Part shown: positions 10,547-17,699 of the stretch, piece by piece | Numbering within the stretch: the first letter of the stretch is position 1 | Layout: every line of letters starts with the position of its first letter | Assembly (NCBI GenBank): GCA_003243255.1 | Contig: QFQM01000078.1 | Coordinates: 1 to 19,999, forward strand | From: Flavobacterium psychrophilum | Lineage (GTDB): Bacteria; Bacteroidota; Bacteroidia; Flavobacteriales; Flavobacteriaceae | Direction of reading: 5' to 3' | Length of the DNA stretch: 19,999 nt | Translations under genes and position numbers: made by a program | Notes under the pieces: generated by a model | Databases searched by the model: none | The model's input: the letters and a program-made list of their open reading frames with translations, nothing else | Told to the model about the DNA's origin: nothing

Positions 10547-10969
10547 ATGGCAGATGTGCACAACAAGGCAACCCGCAGTTATAACATGAGCCAGATAAAA
10601 GGCAAGAACACCAGGCCGGAGATGTTGGTACGACGTTTCCTGCACGCACATGGCTTTAGATATAAATTGCATGACAAGTCTTTGCCCGGTAAACCCGATC
10701 TCGTTTTACCCAAATACAAAACCGCCATCTTTATTCACGGATGCTTTTGGCATGGTCATGAAGGTTGCCGCTATTTTGTTGTGCCTAAAACTCGTACTGA
10801 GTGGTGGCTCAATAAAATACGAGGAAATATTACTAATGACCATAAAGCGCAGGACGCATTGGTAGCACAAGGATGGACCGTCATTGTTATATGGGAGTGC
10901 GACCTAAAGCCGGCAAAGGTCAACGACACTCTCAGTAACTTGGTCAGATTGATCAACTTCACCAAGTAA
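10547..10969 (+). CDS. vsr: Very short patch repair endonuclease Vsr
   Basis: A 140-residue protein, close to the E. coli Vsr length (156). It nicks DNA 5' of the mismatched T in T:G pairs that arise when 5-methylcytosine deaminates at Dcm-type sites, starting repair back to C:G. The opening TRSYNMSQIKGKNTRPEMLV is characteristic. The catalytic Asp51 is in LPGKPDLV and the active-site histidines are His64 and His69 in IHGCFWHGH. The structural zinc ligands are Cys66, His71, Cys74 and Cys118 (IWECD). All key residues are present. It lies 296 bases upstream of the methyltransferase, on the same strand, with only a decayed regulator between, the usual companion arrangement. Confidence 0.95.
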   Translation: MADVHNKATRSYNMSQIKGKNTRPEMLVRRFLHAHGFRYKLHDKSLPGKPDLVLPKYKTAIFIHGCFWHGHEGCRYFVVPKTRTEWWLNKIRGNITNDHKAQDALVAQGWTVIVIWECDLKPAKVNDTLSNLVRLINFTK

Positions 10970-11019: not shown

Positions 11020-11269
11020 ATGAATAGTATTGCCTATGGATTTAAAGATCCAAATAAGCTTAAAAATCAAGGAGCTACGTACTAAAAAAAACTTTCTTAG
11101 GAAGAAATTACCTGGAAGGTAGAAATCGATAGAACCTTCATGAATCATGTCGAAAATGGATGCAGGAATGTTTCAATAGAAAGCCTGGAAAAGATATGTA
11201 TTGGCCTTGATATCATCTCTTGAAGATTTTTGTACGGAATATTTCAATAGCAAAAAAGGAAGCAAATGA
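11020..11269 (+). pseudogene. Frameshifted XRE-family (C-protein-like) regulator
   Basis: Reading across frames restores a typical small HTH protein: MNSIAYGFKDPNKLK, (shift) IKELRTKKNF, (shift) EEITWKVEIDRTFMNHVENG, CRNVSIESLEKICIGLDI, (shift) SLEDFCTEYFNSKKGSK. The pattern RTxxxHVExGxRNVSIExLEKI is the second half of an HTH_3 domain. At least three frameshifts and no single open frame mean it is dead as written. Its restored stop TGA overlaps the methyltransferase start as ATGA at 11266-11269, so the two were once translationally coupled. Controller proteins of this kind commonly sit beside type II R-M genes and time nuclease expression. Sequencing indels are an alternative explanation. Confidence 0.72.
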
Positions 11270-12546
11270 TTATCGCGGAAAAAAAACCTGTTCTTTTAAG
11301 CGCTAAAATTCATGCAGTAGCAGATAAAATATGGAAAGCAGCATTATTCGGACCAGAGAACTATAAATCTGCTGTAATAAGCCATTATTTACATTCAAAG
11401 GAAAGGCGATTTAAAAAGGATGCAATTGAATACGCTATAGACATATTGGAGAGTTATCTTGATGAAGAGATTACTAATAAGGTTGCTGAAGAGGCGCTGC
11501 AGTATATTATCAGATACAAGGACGATATTCCATTCCCCACTCCGGCTAATTCACAGTTTACCTTTATTGATTTATTTGCAGGTATAGGAGGATTCAGGAT
11601 CGCAATGCAAAAATTACAAGGAAAGTGTGTGTTTACTTCTGAATGGGATAAAATGGCCCAGCGTACTTATTATGCCAATTTTGGAGAAATACCATTTGGC
11701 GATATTACAAAGCCTGAAACAAAAGAATGGATCCCCGAAAAGTTCGATATAATCTGTGGAGGGTTTCCGTGTCAGCCCTTTTCAATTGCGGGAGTTTCAA
11801 AAAAATTGAGCTTAGGTAGAAAACATGGCTTTGAAGATGAACGTCAAGGCAATCTGTTTTTTCATCTGGCCGAAATAATTGAGAAACACAGACCCAAAGC
11901 ATTTTTTCTCGAAAATGTGAAAAATCTTATTTCACACGATAAAGGCAACACATTTAAAGTAATAAGAGATACGTTAATTAACCTTGGATATTCGTTTCAT
12001 TCAAAAGTTTTGGATGGAAAACATTTTGTTCCCCAACATCGCGAGAGAACATTTATGGTAGGGTTTGACGCTGAAGTATACAACTACCAGGAAAATTTCC
12101 AGTTCCCCGAAATGCCTGAGGTATCGAGGAAAGTAAAGGATATTTTACAAAAGAAAATCGACCCCAAGTATACACTTTCCGATAAACTGTGGGATTATTT
12201 ACAAAATTATGCAAAGAAGCACCAGGAAAAAGGCAATGGGTTTGGTTTTGGAATAGCTGATCCTAATGGGATTACAAGAACTATAAGCGCAAGATATTAT
12301 AAAGACGGTTCGGAAGCTTTGATTGGACAAAAAGATAAAAACCCGAGAAGGCTTACTCCAAGGGAATGCGCTTTTTTACAAGGCTATCCCGAACATTTTG
12401 AAATCCCGGTTTCAGACAACCAGGCATATAAACAATTTGGAAATTCAGTAGTTGTTCCATTGATTGAAGCCATTGGAGAAAAAGTAATTAAGGCACTAAA
12501 TAATAAACCGACACGTAAAATACAAGAGAAATTGGTAAATAAATGA
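11266..12546 (+). CDS. dcm: Dcm/M.EcoRII-like DNA (cytosine-5-)-methyltransferase
   Basis: A 426-residue C5 cytosine methyltransferase using S-adenosylmethionine. About 95 residues of helical N-terminal extension precede motif I, FIDLFAGIGGFRIA (101-113). Motif IV is GGFPCQPFSIAG with catalytic Cys169, motif VI is FFLENVKNL (216-218), motif VIII is QHRER (257-261), motif IX is RRLTPRECAFLQGYP, and motif X is QFGNSVVVP. The target-recognition segment NYAKKHQEKGNGFGFG plus RTISARYYKDGSEALI is very close to that of E. coli Dcm and the CCNGG-group enzymes, so CCWGG or CCNGG is the expected target (inference). All catalytic motifs are intact. The start overlaps the decayed regulator (ATGA), and the stop overlaps the start of the decayed nuclease. 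The region looks AT-richer than the flanking genes, suggesting horizontal transfer. Confidence 0.95.
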   Translation: MIIAEKKPVLLSAKIHAVADKIWKAALFGPENYKSAVISHYLHSKERRFKKDAIEYAIDILESYLDEEITNKVAEEALQYIIRYKDDIPFPTPANSQFTFIDLFAGIGGFRIAMQKLQGKCVFTSEWDKMAQRTYYANFGEIPFGDITKPETKEWIPEKFDIICGGFPCQPFSIAGVSKKLSLGRKHGFEDERQGNLFFHLAEIIEKHRPKAFFLENVKNLISHDKGNTFKVIRDTLINLGYSFHSKVLDGKHFVPQHRERTFMVGFDAEVYNYQENFQFPEMPEVSRKVKDILQKKIDPKYTLSDKLWDYLQNYAKKHQEKGNGFGFGIADPNGITRTISARYYKDGSEALIGQKDKNPRRLTPRECAFLQGYPEHFEIPVSDNQAYKQFGNSVVVPLIEAIGEKVIKALNNKPTRKIQEKLVNK

Positions 12547-12817
12547 GCAATCAAAATGAAGCTACCCAAAGTTTAGCGAATGCAGATACTGGGCATTTTG
12601 CGAAACTATTTGAGGTGTCCGATCGTATCTTGATCAAGAAATTATCAAAAAATGATCGTGACTGGGCACGTTTCTCCAATAAACATCAAGCCGGAGTTTA
12701 TATACCACATATGTAGGGCACAAGAACGTAATTAGTTTCAAGGAATTTTGCGAAGTTCATTTGAAACCACATATTAAAAAGTGGAAACTGCAAAATGGGA
12801 AACAGCATTTGTTCTAA
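12543..12817 (+). pseudogene. EcoRII-type restriction endonuclease remnant with large internal deletion
   Basis: An ATG at 12543 overlapping the dcm stop opens a 57-codon frame ending at a TAG (12714-12716). It contains ILIKKLSKND and KHQAGVYIP, which match the EcoRII N-terminal (B3-like effector-binding) domain pattern IKRLSAND...HQVGLYIP. Directly after, a different frame reads YVGHKNVISFKEFCEVHL, then KPHIKKWKLQNGKQHLF and TAA at 12815-12817, a plausible C-terminus. The two ends are joined out of frame near 12700-12712. Compared with the roughly 400-residue EcoRII, the middle, including the PD-(D/E)XK nuclease core, is gone. The stop overlaps by four bases (CTAA) the ancestral stop of the convergent DUF6339 gene. 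Confidence 0.7.
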
Positions 12818-12868
12818 TGCGTTTTTATTTTGTAAAAAGAACATAATTTAACCAACTGCTGTTCCACC
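12814..12868 (-). pseudogene. Detached 3' end of the DUF6339 gene
   Basis: On the minus strand, downstream of the IS, GTGGAACAG continues as codons for VEQQLVKLCSFYKIKTH and ends at TAG (12814-12816). Removing the IS and one copy of the 8-bp duplication joins this exactly in frame to the DUF6339 reading frame at 14269. The original protein would have been about 241 residues. Confidence 0.88.
12861..12868. repeat. Left target-site duplication of the IS
   Basis: GTTCCACC at 12861-12868 is repeated exactly at 14269-14276 on the other side of the element. Eight bases is the usual duplication length for the IS256 family. Confidence 0.92.
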
Positions 12869-12896
12869 GGTAGTGTTTCATAAACTGTGTCAGTAG
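12869..12896 (+). repeat. Left terminal inverted repeat of the IS
   Basis: Starts GGTAGTGTTTCA and ends TGTGTCAGTAG. It matches the reverse complement of 14241-14268 at 24 of 28 positions. Confidence 0.9.
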
Positions 12897-12999
12897 GATT
12901 ACATTTTGTACTCATCGGCATATGATGTTCTTTTCTGATGGAGCTGATTAGTATTACTGTTGATGCAAAAGACATCATGTGACGATGAGGCTTCACTAT

Positions 13000-14211
13000 T
13001 CAGAGATTTAGTTTCAGCCTGTCTCCAAAGATAATAGATAATTGCGCTAAGGTCTGGTTCCAGTTGTGGACCGGTTTATTCCATTTGGTGCTGATATTCT
13101 CCTGCACTAAGAACAGCAGTTTCATTAAAGCATCTTCACTCTGGAAGGCGCCTTTTGTTTTGGTGACCGTTCGGAGTTGCCGATGGAAGCCTTCAATGAT
13201 GTTGGTGGTATACATGATGCGGCGTATATCCTTGTTGTACTGGAAGTAACCGCTCAAACGGTCCCAGTTCTTTCTCTAGGATTCAATCACTTTAGGATAG
13301 CGCTGCCCCCAGTTGGCAGCTACCTGGTCAAGGTTGCGCTCAGCCTGCTCTTTGGTAGTGGCTTTGTAAACACCTTGCAAATCCTTCATAAAGGGTTTTA
13401 CGTCTTTGTAAGATAAATACTTGTATGAGTTCCTGATCTGGTGAACCACACAGAGCTGGACTTCAGTTTTAGGGAAGATGCTTTCTATGGCGTCGGCAAA
13501 GCCCTGCAGGTTATCAATGGAAGCAATGAAGATATCTTCAATGCCCCGGTTCTGCAGGTCAGTAAGTACTTGTAGCCAGAATTTAGAGCCTTCGTGCTCG
13601 CCGATATACATACCCAGCAGTTCTTTATATCCCTCCTGGTTAAGCCCGATAATGCAGTATACAGCACGATTAACCACCCGCCCTTCATGGCGAACTTTGT
13701 AATGAATAGCATCCAGCCAGACAAAGGGATAAACCCGCTCCAATGGCCGGCTTCGCCATTCCTGAATCAGGGGTAAAATCTTGTCTGTTACACGACTGAT
13801 AGTAGCAGGTGAAATATCAAGCCCGTACATATCACTGAGGTGATCGCGGATATCACTGTAGCTGGAGCCGCGGGCATACAAGGCGATAATTTGACGGTCT
13901 AAATCAACACCTAAGGTCTTTTGTCGTTTGGGAACAATCTCCGGCTCAAAAGTGCTGTTGCGATCTCTGGGAGTGCTGAGATCAACATCGCCTACCGGTG
14001 TTTTGACCTTCTTCTTGCCCTTGCCGTTCTTGCGGTTAGGATCTTCAGTCTGCTCAATGTGAGCTTCCAGTTCGCCCTCCAGGGCTTCTTCCAGAAACTC
14101 TTTCAACAATGGGGTAAAGACGCCGTCTTTACCAAGCAAGGTCTCTCCGCTTTTTAAGCGGGCTGCAGCCTGCTTCTTGAATGCTTCGAAATCAAAGTTT
14201 TGCTTTTCCAT
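13000..14211 (-). pseudogene. IS256-family transposase with an in-frame amber codon
   Basis: The frame would encode 403 residues, the normal size for Transposase_mut (IS256) proteins, but a TAG at 13276-13278 ends it after residue 311. The reading is VIES-stop-RKNWDRLSGYF. Relatives have Trp at the stop position (VIxSWRxNW), so TGG to TAG is the likely change. Catalytic Asp167 (VWLDAIHYK) and Asp233 (ASIDNLQGF) lie before the stop, while the catalytic Glu340 (TTNIIEGFHRQLR) lies after it. The truncated product should be inactive. No other frameshift is seen, and the second part remains open to 13000. It could still be mobilised in trans by an intact copy elsewhere. Confidence 0.93.
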
Positions 14212-14947
14212 ACTGTATCAGTTTAAAGTTACTTAACTTTCTACTGACACACTTTTTGAAACACTCTCGTTCCACCTCTTGTTCATGCATCAATGACAAT
14301 ACCCGTACGCCACCCAAAGCATTTAAGCCTTTAAACAACTTCCGCATATCCTGCTTCATATCCAGATGTTTGTTCTTTGCATAAAAGGTTAGAAACCCTT
14401 TTAGCGCTCCTTGATAAGTACTGAACCGCCGGTCAATCAGATTCTGATAAAAATCCTGCTTTTCCCACAACAGCTTGGTCAGTTCAAACGGGTCACTCTG
14501 TTTGGGGTCCCAGGTAAGCCTGGCCGCCCACCACAGGCGGGCAATACTATGCTGGTTGCGTTGCCGTAGCGCAGCGCCTTCAAAATGAAAGCGGTCTTTG
14601 ATGGTATCATCACTACTTTCCTCATCAATACCCCACCGCTGCCTTGTATAATTGTAAAACAAAGTATGTGCAAGAGTAACCCACAAACGCTTGTCGTTAG
14701 CCTGCACAAGATCAAGATGCTTAAGAGCATTGAATAACTTAATGGAATTTTGCGCATCCCCTCCGGGGATAGGCCTGAAACCATCAACCTCATCCAGATT
14801 CATATCCAGCTTTACTGTATCACGAAGCCAGATAGCATCTGAAAAATCAAACATCTCTTCATTATACCTGCTGCGGATACCTTCATCCGTTCTATAATTT
14901 AGTAACTGAGTGCAGGTGGCAGCACTGAAGATCCGGGTTTCAATCAT
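14192..14947 (-). CDS. DUF6339-family protein, C-terminus replaced by IS sequence
   Basis: The third gene of the ATPase operon. It is helical and rich in Trp and Arg, with ARLWWAARLTWDPKQSDPFE and LWEKQDFYQNLIDRRFSTYQ, which I match to DUF6339 (unknown function, often near restriction-type genes). The start overlaps the preceding gene's stop by ATGA (14944-14947). The native sequence runs to residue 226 (HEQEVE). The IS then supplies 25 foreign residues to a stop at 14192, inside the transposase start region. Only the last 15 native residues are lost, so the 251-residue hybrid could still fold and work. The missing tail is found at 12814-12868. Confidence 0.72.
   Translation of the reverse strand: MIETRIFSAATCTQLLNYRTDEGIRSRYNEEMFDFSDAIWLRDTVKLDMNLDEVDGFRPIPGGDAQNSIKLFNALKHLDLVQANDKRLWVTLAHTLFYNYTRQRWGIDEESSDDTIKDRFHFEGAALRQRNQHSIARLWWAARLTWDPKQSDPFELTKLLWEKQDFYQNLIDRRFSTYQGALKGFLTFYAKNKHLDMKQDMRKLFKGLNALGGVRVLSLMHEQEVERECFKKCVSRKLSNFKLIQYGKAKL
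14241..14268 (-). repeat. Right terminal inverted repeat of the IS
   Basis: Read on the minus strand it starts GAGAGTGTTTCA and ends GTGTCAGTAG. Partner of the repeat at 12869-12896. Confidence 0.9.
14269..14276. repeat. Right target-site duplication of the IS
   Basis: GTTCCACC, identical to 12861-12868. Confidence 0.92.
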
Positions 14948-15792
14948 GGCTTGATATTTTTAATCCTTAATAGCTCTTCAAAGGCAAAATTTACCGGTAC
15001 ACCCGTTCTGATCACCTTTTGGGCATTGATAAAATTATCATTGTGGCGCATACCTCTTGGAAGCAAAGTGTCCAGCACCGTAAACCATTTGAACCCACCA
15101 AAGTGGCCGGACTCCTGCTCATCGGTAATTATCTTAAATGCTTGTTCCAGAGCAGGGATTACATAAAGGTTCAATGCGGTAAAAGGCGCACCGCCCTTCT
15201 TATCGAAAAGAAAAGTAATAGGGTCTGTTTCCGTATTGGCCGAAGGGTAATAAATAACGATCTGGTCGGCGTCAAAATCGAAATGCAATTCCTTTACCGG
15301 AGAGTTGACGTCTATCTTTTCAAACCTGAATATGCTGCCGATAGTTGCCTTCTCATTGTCCTTCTCTATGGGAATTTTTTGCGTACCGGTAAGCCCCACG
15401 ATATCGCCTTTTACAAGGTCAAACACCTTTTCTTCAAAAACGCTACTAAAGCTATCATCATAATAAGGCAATTTATCATCTCTTACCAGCAGGAAAGACT
15501 CTGTTTCAAGAATAATATCGACTTCATTTTCCGGTAGATTGAACTGTCGTGGGTTTAAGAACGTCCAATTCATATACGTTGGCACACAACTGATCTTTAA
15601 GACAAAATCCAGTTTGCCGGCTTCATACAGGCTGGCCAGATAGACATTGCTGATCTCAACCATTATGTCGGAGAATACATATTGTCTGATTTGGCGGTCC
15701 ATCGTTATCTTAAACCGTACGTGAAAAGCGCCATCCATATCGTCTGGTATACCCAGCACGGGATGCGGCATTGATATATTAATACCTGTCAT
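14944..15792 (-). CDS. Unrecognised 282-residue protein, middle gene of the ATPase operon
   Basis: No family recognised. The composition suggests a soluble, mostly beta protein with many short alternating strands (HVRFKITMDRQIRQYVFSDI, KLDFVLKISCVPTYMNWTF, ELHFDFDADQIVIYYPS) and a helical C-terminal third (LYVIPALEQAFKIITDEQES and LLRIKNIKP). It has no signal peptide or membrane segment. There are several acidic clusters (ENEVDIILETE, YYDD) but no clear nuclease motif. It starts 5 bases after the ATPase stop and overlaps the DUF6339 start by 4 bases, so it is surely translated with them and likely works in one complex. An adaptor or target-binding role is a guess from position. Confidence 0.85.
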   Translation of the reverse strand: MTGINISMPHPVLGIPDDMDGAFHVRFKITMDRQIRQYVFSDIMVEISNVYLASLYEAGKLDFVLKISCVPTYMNWTFLNPRQFNLPENEVDIILETESFLLVRDDKLPYYDDSFSSVFEEKVFDLVKGDIVGLTGTQKIPIEKDNEKATIGSIFRFEKIDVNSPVKELHFDFDADQIVIYYPSANTETDPITFLFDKKGGAPFTALNLYVIPALEQAFKIITDEQESGHFGGFKWFTVLDTLLPRGMRHNDNFINAQKVIRTGVPVNFAFEELLRIKNIKP

Positions 15793-15797
15793 AGATA

Positions 15798-17699
15798 CTA
15801 TTTAATAATAAATGCAGATCGTTGGTTATCCGAAACCTCCAGGTACAACGTTTGTTTGCCGGAAATAGGAGTAGCTATTGCGTATTCCTTTATAGTTCCG
15901 TCTGCATCAGTAATTTCCCGGAATTTTATCTTCTTTCCCTGCGCATCTGTTACCTCATGCAATACAAATGCGATTTCGTCTCCCGAATCAGAATATTGAT
16001 AAAGATTTAGTTCTGCATTATCGACAGGCTCAGCCGTACTAAGAACAGCTTTATATACATTCCTGCCGGAACTTTCTCCAAAGTGAAAAACCCTGCTTTT
16101 AACTGCAATCCTTGGTGTTTTACCACCTCTTGAACTGCCTGCTTTTTTACTGGATTTTCCATTTTTAGCGATTACTTCCCTGTCCCTTGGGGCTTCGCCA
16201 CCGCCTGTCCCAGGAATATTGCCACGTGAACTGCTCACGAAACTGTTTTCCTGTTCTGAACGGAGGTTAATATTGATTTCATCCTGAATGGCACGTCGGT
16301 GGATAGTTTCGGGCTCACTGGGTGTGTTGTTCCGGCTCCCTTTGTTGGAATCAGCAAAGGCCTTTTGAAGATCGTCAAACAACTCTGTCAGAAAAGCCGG
16401 AGTTTCTGTCGGTTGTTTATATTTATCGATGAGCTCCTTGATAACCCCTCTGATACTATTCTTAATATTCTTCAGAATAAGAACTCCGTCTTTTTTAGTA
16501 AGCTCATCATCATTGTTTTCCAGCATTTGTTCCTCAAAGCTATCATGCTTTGGAGGCTCCATCATCCGTAACACCTGGTTACCTTTTTTATTATCACAAA
16601 GGAATACCCCGGTAATATTTACCCCTACGAGCCTTAGTTCTGTCTTGCTGAAAATGACCATACCATTCCGCAAATAGGCAACATTGTTTTCTCCCTGTTC
16701 ATGTTCAATATAATAGAACGTACACGGGCCAATAATGGGAATGTCAAACGATGTCTGCTTCCCGTTTTTAACCGCCTGATAAAACCAGTAAGGATTACCA
16801 TAAGGAGTCAACGTTTCATCCTGTTCCTCTTCCTGGGAAAACAACTCTTCCATCATCGATTCTACATTCCTCGCGTTAATGCGCTGAATACTGGTGCCGT
16901 TTTTAAATAACTCCACTTCCAGGCGTCCTTCATGAAGCAACATCCAGTAATTCCTTAGTACTGCTTTGGAGAACTCGGTGTGCCAGTTATCTTCAAGCTC
17001 TACGCCCATCACATATTGAGATAGTCCGGAGGCATCTCTCCGGAATACTTCAGGAATATCCTTCTGTTTCCTGATAGAACTTCTTTCTTCACCATTGCCA
17101 AGATAAATACGGCCCTCATGATTTCTGCTGCCGGTTTTATAAGAAGCCAATTTAGCCACACCCTGAAAAATATGTTCACCATCCCTATTGTAGGAAGAAT
17201 AAAAGACTGTTCTTAGGTTTGAGATGCCATAAATGGCATTTTTCCCTATACCAAAGGAGCCGCCCGCACTTTTATCTTCTTTAGCTGATACCCCTTCTGA
17301 TAATACACAGGCTACAAAGCTGGAACCATTTTCCGTATCCTTACCTTCAAGGCCTTTTGTATTATAATCAGAATAAACAAGAAAAGGGATTTTGTCACCT
17401 TTAATAGACTCGTAAGCTTTTTTGAAAAACTTCACCTGATAGGGATGGGACTTCTGAACCTGGTCCAGGACTTTTTTAAACTGATCAAACGCGGGAATGT
17501 CGCTTTTCCTGATAGTACAATATTCAATATTGATTACAACCTTACTTTTACCCGGCAACCTCGCATCGTTCGAGTTTTGAAAAAGCTCTCTGACAAAAGA
17601 ATTGATCGCATGACTGTTAAAAGTCAGTATACCGGCGTTGTTAAATCCTTCATCTCCTTTCTTTTTTTCCTCAGCGCCCCATTTCCAGTTTATAGCCAT
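15798..17699 (-). CDS. GHKL-type ATPase (Hsp90/MutL/MORC-like) of a putative defence operon
   Basis: A 633-residue cytoplasmic protein with a GHKL nucleotide-binding domain in the first 300 residues or so. The N-box is RELFQNSNDA (Glu38 base, Asn42 for magnesium). The second motif is VYSDYNTKGLEG (Asp111). The lid glycines are GGSFGIGKNA (146-155). A transducer-like region follows, with HEQGENNVAYLRNGMVIF. A Ser/Gly/Lys-rich flexible segment (about 470-545, GNIPGTGGGEAPRDRE and SSKKAGSSRGGKTPR) leads to a small beta domain ending QTLYLEVSDNQRSAFIIK. Such ATPases dimerise on ATP and clamp DNA or protein. Close prokaryotic MutL/MORC-like relatives occur in R-M neighbourhoods, which fits the convergent vsr-dcm module. 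It is the first gene of a three-gene operon. A histidine kinase is excluded by the missing phospho-acceptor domain. Confidence 0.85.
   Translation of the reverse strand: MAINWKWGAEEKKKGDEGFNNAGILTFNSHAINSFVRELFQNSNDARLPGKSKVVINIEYCTIRKSDIPAFDQFKKVLDQVQKSHPYQVKFFKKAYESIKGDKIPFLVYSDYNTKGLEGKDTENGSSFVACVLSEGVSAKEDKSAGGSFGIGKNAIYGISNLRTVFYSSYNRDGEHIFQGVAKLASYKTGSRNHEGRIYLGNGEERSSIRKQKDIPEVFRRDASGLSQYVMGVELEDNWHTEFSKAVLRNYWMLLHEGRLEVELFKNGTSIQRINARNVESMMEELFSQEEEQDETLTPYGNPYWFYQAVKNGKQTSFDIPIIGPCTFYYIEHEQGENNVAYLRNGMVIFSKTELRLVGVNITGVFLCDNKKGNQVLRMMEPPKHDSFEEQMLENNDDELTKKDGVLILKNIKNSIRGVIKELIDKYKQPTETPAFLTELFDDLQKAFADSNKGSRNNTPSEPETIHRRAIQDEININLRSEQENSFVSSSRGNIPGTGGGEAPRDREVIAKNGKSSKKAGSSRGGKTPRIAVKSRVFHFGESSGRNVYKAVLSTAEPVDNAELNLYQYSDSGDEIAFVLHEVTDAQGKKIKFREITDADGTIKEYAIATPISGKQTLYLEVSDNQRSAFIIK

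Follow-up and report, generated by a model that had tools for sequence, protein, structure and literature searches.

In eukaryotes, MORC proteins silence DNA, and in very short patch repair a GHKL ATPase, MutL, and the endonuclease Vsr act around methylated cytosine. Gene context has linked MORC-like ATPases of prokaryotes to restriction-modification (R-M) since 2008, when the genes of MORC and paraMORC ATPases were described as neighbors of cytosine methyltransferase, Vsr, helicase and nuclease genes and DNA looping was proposed for the proteins (Iyer, Abhiman and Aravind 2008, PMC2292703). VcSduA, a Shedu protein with a GHKL N-terminal domain, shows that phage defense can depend on a GHKL ATPase, since its demonstrated anti-phage activity was abolished by the E27A substitution (PMC12137116). 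The neighbors of HEF_HK GHKL proteins with Response_reg_2 are described as enriched in C-5 cytosine DNA methylases (PMC8011034). PADLOC moreover holds a candidate defense system of three genes, PDC-M33, without a mechanism. The PDC names are said to originate from a 2024 preprint by Payne and others, and a full-text literature search, outside of which bioRxiv preprints lay, found no paper on DUF6339 or PDC-M33. Here, a PDC-M33 locus is described in the first 19,999 nucleotides of a Flavobacterium psychrophilum contig (QFQM01000078.1; the whole stretch is called the window below). An original prediction made from this DNA knew of no described role for the three-gene set; the trio does already have a PADLOC name. 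Because the trio usually stands beside a cytosine methylation gene, it is probably, with a slight lean in favor of this reading, the ATP-driven part of poorly known R-M defense systems that mostly use 5-methylcytosine (m5C).

The PDC-M33 trio in the window

Three adjacent minus-strand genes, termed A, B and C, are covered nearly along their full length, and in the same gene order, by the PDC-M33A, PDC-M33B and PDC-M33C models:

15798-17699, minus strand: A, GHKL-type ATPase of 633 amino acids (PDC-M33A; PADLOC E 6.6e-93, motif residues)
14944-15792, minus strand: B, protein of 282 amino acids (PDC-M33B; PADLOC E 1.6e-21, conserved N-terminal PHPVL motif)
14192-14947, minus strand: C, DUF6339 protein, open frame of 251 amino acids (PDC-M33C; PF19866 E 6.6e-49, PADLOC E 3.2e-46)

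A and B are separated by 5 bases, and B and C overlap by 4 (ATGA), in agreement with the arrangement first predicted. The PADLOC matches bear out the proposal of a defense candidate with a GHKL-type ATPase, and the PF19866 match confirms C as a DUF6339 protein; the Pfam scan matched no family in B.

Glu38, the N-box residue singled out in the original prediction, is present in A together with Asn42 and Asp45. These three positions (E38, N42, D45), like the other GHKL residues (D111, T114, G116; G147, G150, G152, K153), are identical in 78 aligned relatives; R344, E381 and H385 are likewise invariant (78/78), and all of the listed residues occur in the window protein. The predicted likeness to MutL, MORC and Hsp90 thus holds at the level of motif residues and not in the wider comparisons: a Pfam scan of A matched no GHKL domain, NCBIfam returned a sacsin-type ATP-binding match of 18.8 bits, under the cut-off of 50, and profile comparison with MutL, HtpG and GHKL-nuclease (0.7%, 17% and 0.2%) aligned a short stretch or nothing useful.

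Conservation of the trio across genomes

A genome scan with a single window protein found no relative. An alignment-based scan succeeded, and the best 80 of the 340 genome loci that it related to A were taken as the relative set, in which A, B and C were detected by profiles built from three protein alignments. All three genes occur together, in order and on one strand, at 72 of the 80 loci, and at five more when B is sought with a deeper profile, giving 77/80; the genes mostly overlap or lie a few bases apart. The three exceptions are L052 and L057, where the contig ends within B, and L027, where A is in two pieces and no B was seen in the 788 bases of contig remaining; at L036, L075 and L080, one trio gene is split over two frames. 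According to the record titles, the hosts include Bacteroidota, Planctomycetota, Patescibacteria groups, Bacillota, several proteobacterial classes, Cyanobacteria, Verrucomicrobiota and Nitrospira relatives, among others. The trio is rare among close kin of the window genome, as a search for the PDC-M33A family in 147 kin genomes gave a single match (G039, a distant A).

In the converse search, anchored on DUF6339 and made in two samples of 395 genomes, seven different genomes passed the Pfam cut-off, with A beside C in 7/7, B in 6/7 and both methyltransferase and Vsr in 4/7. A weak DUF6339 match below the cut-off (G597) had no A, B or C adjoining. Where all four genes (the trio and the methyltransferase) are full-length, as at 53 of the 80 loci, pairwise distances correlate at 0.925 for A and B, 0.908 for A and C, and 0.881 for B and C; these and the other distance correlations given here take in host relatedness, which was not removed. 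Judged from gene order and co-variation, A, B and C are one inherited unit. The linkage of B and DUF6339 homologs to this ATPase elsewhere, on which the original prediction had hung its defense proposal, is the rule (77/80).

Some variants were seen beside this common form. On the Cyanobium contig of L079, A and C are present a second time, encoded on the opposite strand beside the first set and a cytosine-5 (C5) methyltransferase. At L086 (5254-12378, plus strand), a tight operon runs from vsr and dcm through a 619-amino-acid HATPase_c_3 protein with a weak HSDR_N_2 tail to proteins of 652, 253 and 240 amino acids. The 652-amino-acid protein is a distant homolog of A (hhalign 99.9%, hmmsearch 9.6e-37), and no similarity to B and C was detected for the last two. 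A DUF6339 protein of 485 amino acids is encoded at L084/L087 (191-1648, minus strand), with an extra C-terminal part of about 240 amino acids that has no Pfam family.

Linkage to cytosine-5 methyltransferases

In the window, a vsr and a dcm gene on the plus strand converge on the minus-strand trio:

10547-10969, plus strand: Vsr mismatch endonuclease, 140 amino acids (PF03852 E 3.3e-34, TIGR00632 above cut-off)
11266-12546, plus strand: dcm-type DNA cytosine-5 methyltransferase, 426 amino acids (PF00145 E 6.1e-92)

This arrangement agrees with the prediction that the two genes face the trio, and the same convergent layout is found at L089 (= L005) and L117. When profiles built from the window Dcm and Vsr were searched against the flanks of the 80 loci (1.05 Mb), a C5 methyltransferase was found at 63 and a Vsr at 24, all within those 63. 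The 112 PF00145 matches counted in 50 of the 80 host genomes (165 Mb) lead to an expectation of only 0.71 loci, which makes an approximately 90-fold excess. This linkage of the trio to methylation is a strong result. A main setting among non-defense housekeeping genes, named at the outset as an outcome that would speak against the defense proposal, is not what the flanks show, and since the linkage is systematic, vsr and dcm have to be considered together with the trio; the first supposition, of two separate modules fused into an island, is not supported.

At 31 of the 80 loci, a co-directional methyltransferase precedes A by less than 1.2 kb, and at 14 its stop is at most 13 bases from the start of A or past it. 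The distance correlation of A and methyltransferase is 0.605 over the 53 loci, reaching 0.872 in 27 co-directional loci and 0.328 in the other 26, so that two states are apparent, one a fixed operon and the other an exchangeable neighbor. These figures bear on the rather unlikely alternative that the trio is an autonomous defense, for example one acting by abortive infection, that is merely located in R-M islands and makes no use of the methylation mark. Such a system would account for the 17 loci without a C5 methyltransferase, for the low correlation outside the co-directional class, and for trios beside N6-methylase genes at L098 and, by matching coordinates, at L022 (from methyltransferase family searches in 14 genomes of loci without the C5 enzyme). 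However, the excess of 63 loci over 0.71, the stop-start overlaps and the correlation of 0.872 point to more than the company of an island.

Mobile elements show the same association. Seven of 28 matching plasmid records were opened, and all seven carry the trio, five of them with a C5 methyltransferase (Planococcus, Deinococcus, Priestia, Arthrobacter and Halomicrobium). On the Ligilactobacillus plasmid, the trio lies beside N6-methylase and S-subunit genes, and on the Lactococcus plasmid beside an AlwI-type nuclease and AbiG. Four viral contigs carry the trio, two of the four with a methyltransferase. The Halomicrobium plasmid (L100) places an archaeal trio beside the cytosine methyltransferase, with a very diverged B (E 1.2e-6).

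Neighboring nucleases are varied and not universal, with HpaII, EcoRII-C, NgoFVII, Mrr and HNH_2 among the families listed (the best 25 of 111 and the best 25 of 116; 236 of 238 proteins scanned); at L074, an Mrr-type gene adjoins C. When 120 of 121 neighbor proteins from 15 loci were scanned with PADLOC, the top entry among the best 25 of 177 families was REase_II PDLC03398, whose matches include HhH-GPD proteins encoded at L051, L063 and L080. The L080 protein looks like MutY by its NUDIX domain. At L051 (13520-14188) and L063 (9561-10265), the HhH-GPD glycosylase genes come directly after C and perhaps take the role of Vsr.

It could also be proposed that A is a MutL-like helper of repair, aiding with Vsr or a glycosylase in the correction of T:G mismatches that arise from deaminated m5C. 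Vsr of E. coli works together with MutL, and both the Vsr genes, found at 24 of the 63 loci that have a methyltransferase, and the glycosylase genes after C would suit such a role. Nevertheless, 39 of these 63 loci have no Vsr in the flank, Vsr often accompanies m5C R-M systems anyway, the trio also stands by N6-methylase genes, and PADLOC lists it as a defense candidate, all of which makes a repair function improbable.

The small protein S and a five-gene operon

A small gene, S, encoding about 72 amino acids, directly precedes A, or a methyltransferase that abuts A, at 41 of the 80 loci (L003-L082), and was also found at L116 and L118; its sequence is of the type GNCSN..NYEYTEEDV..IF. Four examples of S gave no PADLOC match and no Pfam match above the cut-off. 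S also directly precedes another large frame at L123, L124, L126, L127 and L128; by eye, an E-x3-N-x2-D box suggests that these frames are other GHKL-type ATPases, a stricter scripted pattern having been negative. An S-anchored search matched seven of 395 genomes, four of them strongly, and three of these four show S before such a frame, L125 being the one that does not.

One lineage class appears, by its gene order and co-variation, to be a co-varying operon of S, methyltransferase, A, B and C. At L028 (Massilia), these five genes alone lie between gyrB and an acyltransferase gene, and at L034 (Methylotenera) they are bordered by a pseudouridine synthase gene on one side and by a 106-amino-acid frame, Fic and thiC genes on the other. 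Restriction endonucleases are present in some relatives, and none was seen between the flanking genes of these two loci. The isolation of the five genes keeps in view a more tentative proposal, to which we give clearly less weight than to the general R-M reading, namely that A, B and C are themselves the restriction half of an unrecognized R-M type. The methyltransferase would protect, a GHKL clamp with B, C and S would attack or silence unmethylated DNA without a recognizable nuclease, the order S, methyltransferase, A, B, C would be the minimal form, and in copies that stand beside type II nucleases and Vsr, the window's among them, these would be add-ons. If so, S and a GHKL ATPase would form a still wider pair.

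An interrupted copy in the window

The window copy of the unit has been altered at the 3' end of C and after dcm:

12869-14268, minus strand: IS256-family (mutator) insertion sequence (IS) element, 1400 bp, inside the 3' end of C (inverted arms, direct repeat, PF00872)
12814-12868, minus strand: 3' end of C with the native stop, separated from the rest of the gene, in the left IS flank (from translation of that flank alone)
12543-12817, plus strand: decayed remnant after dcm, earlier called a nuclease (two short frames in different phases)

The element has inverted arms of 25 nt (12872-12896 and 14241-14265, 92% complementary) and is flanked by an 8-bp direct repeat, GTTCCACC, at 12861-12868 and 14269-14276. 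Its transposase (13000-14211, minus strand) is broken by an in-frame stop, and the PF00872 match is split over two frames (13276-14211 and 13000-13257), so that this IS copy is probably not mobile by itself. Because the element sits inside C, the native residues of the open frame end at 226 and its final 25 are encoded by the IS; the frame ending at 12814 is present solely in the left flank. C is accordingly not the single intact gene at 12814-14947 that had been predicted. The PF19866 match spans residues 64-230, and the 226 native residues are taken to cover the whole Pfam domain.

An intact nuclease after dcm, also part of the original prediction, has likewise given way to a remnant, made up of a 57-amino-acid frame from 12543 and 44 codons at 12683-12814. 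When the remnant was compared with plasmid records, the sole match was not significant (E = 1, annotated as a type II restriction endonuclease). The 4-base stop overlap reported between the trio and this gene is present in the letters; it does not join two intact genes, C being interrupted by the IS and the supposed nuclease being a remnant.

The trio unit in the window is probably impaired. Whether it is no more than a decaying remnant, without present function, of such a system is evenly balanced, as the IS inside C, the decayed frame after dcm and the missing S favor a relic, whereas A and B are intact, C retains its native residues with the entire domain, and the three proteins are 74-87% like their relatives with no relaxed motifs apparent.

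A putative methylation-reading clamp

The data are compatible with a putative ATP-driven clamp that reads DNA methylation. By analogy with other GHKL ATPases, A would dimerize upon ATP binding and close as a clamp on DNA, and B and C would form a complex with it. From the linkage to the methyltransferase, we infer that this partner enzyme writes the self mark and that the A-B-C complex acts on DNA without the mark. S, which also precedes other apparent GHKL-like ATPases, may bind the ATPase. Once triggered, the clamp would block or trap unmarked DNA or pass it on to a type II nuclease at loci that have one; otherwise, B and C might provide an effector of the clamp's own. Both the clamp mechanism and the effector step are inferred.

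Several observations weigh against the R-M reading. Support for A as a GHKL protein comes from its motifs, with nothing added by Pfam, NCBIfam or the profile comparisons. The predicted structure of B is weak (best pLDDT 80.9, the other four models 62-66, pTM 0.48), and an Ig/FN3-like N-terminal sandwich followed by a helical C-terminal part is suggested only weakly. For C, a confident model shows only helices after a short strand region and had no match among solved folds (Foldseek, E <= 0.001), so neither B nor C was identified by fold. Conserved residues of C (Trp89 and Arg104 invariant; Trp139/Trp140, Ala83, Tyr100 and Asn209 near-invariant) include no acidic set of the kind that marks a metal nuclease, and no nuclease domain was recognized in A, B or C by Pfam, PADLOC or NCBIfam. 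Outside the co-directional class, the methyltransferase behaves like an exchangeable neighbor, and 17 of the 80 loci have none in the flank, several of these flanks being short. Finally, the window copy is damaged, and among the window open reading frames there is neither an intact nuclease nor an S gene.

Comparison with known systems

The closest counterpart is the PADLOC entry PDC-M33 itself, whose models A, B and C match and in which the methyltransferase, S and a mechanism are not named. Its linkage to R-M is what is new beyond that entry, which at present lacks an explanation and would gain a stated partner and a prediction: if methylation labels self, the ATPase should switch on once the label is lost. 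With type II R-M systems, the window shares a methyltransferase of the cognate type, its dcm product matching MTase_II best in PADLOC (E 2.8e-137); DrmMII, the methyltransferase model of DISARM, ranks second (E 1.1e-134). MutL resembles A only at the N-box stretch, and A differs from it in its association with mobile R-M loci as well as with plasmids and viral contigs.

Among described GHKL proteins, VcSduA carries its DUF4263 nuclease fused in one protein, according to the account available, which sets it apart from a trio without a recognized nuclease domain (PMC12137116). HEF_HK proteins share the C-5 cytosine methylase neighbors and differ in their domains and proposed signaling role, and no DUF6339 appears in the passages of that source at hand (PMC8011034). 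MORC and paraMORC ATPases are alike in that a GHKL-type ATPase stands beside a cytosine methyltransferase (63/80 loci here) and Vsr (24/80). In the relevant passages, the partners of these ATPases are superfamily II helicases and RE-fold nucleases, whereas those of the trio are B and a DUF6339 protein; the ExxxH motif of paraMORC2 is placed there in the C-terminal part of the S5 domain (PMC2292703), and in A such a motif is present as E381 and H385 in 78/78 relatives. Altogether, a compact operon that joins one methyltransferase and one GHKL ATPase to two small partners and a protein of about 72 amino acids would make a bacterial MORC-like mechanism testable in a laboratory strain.

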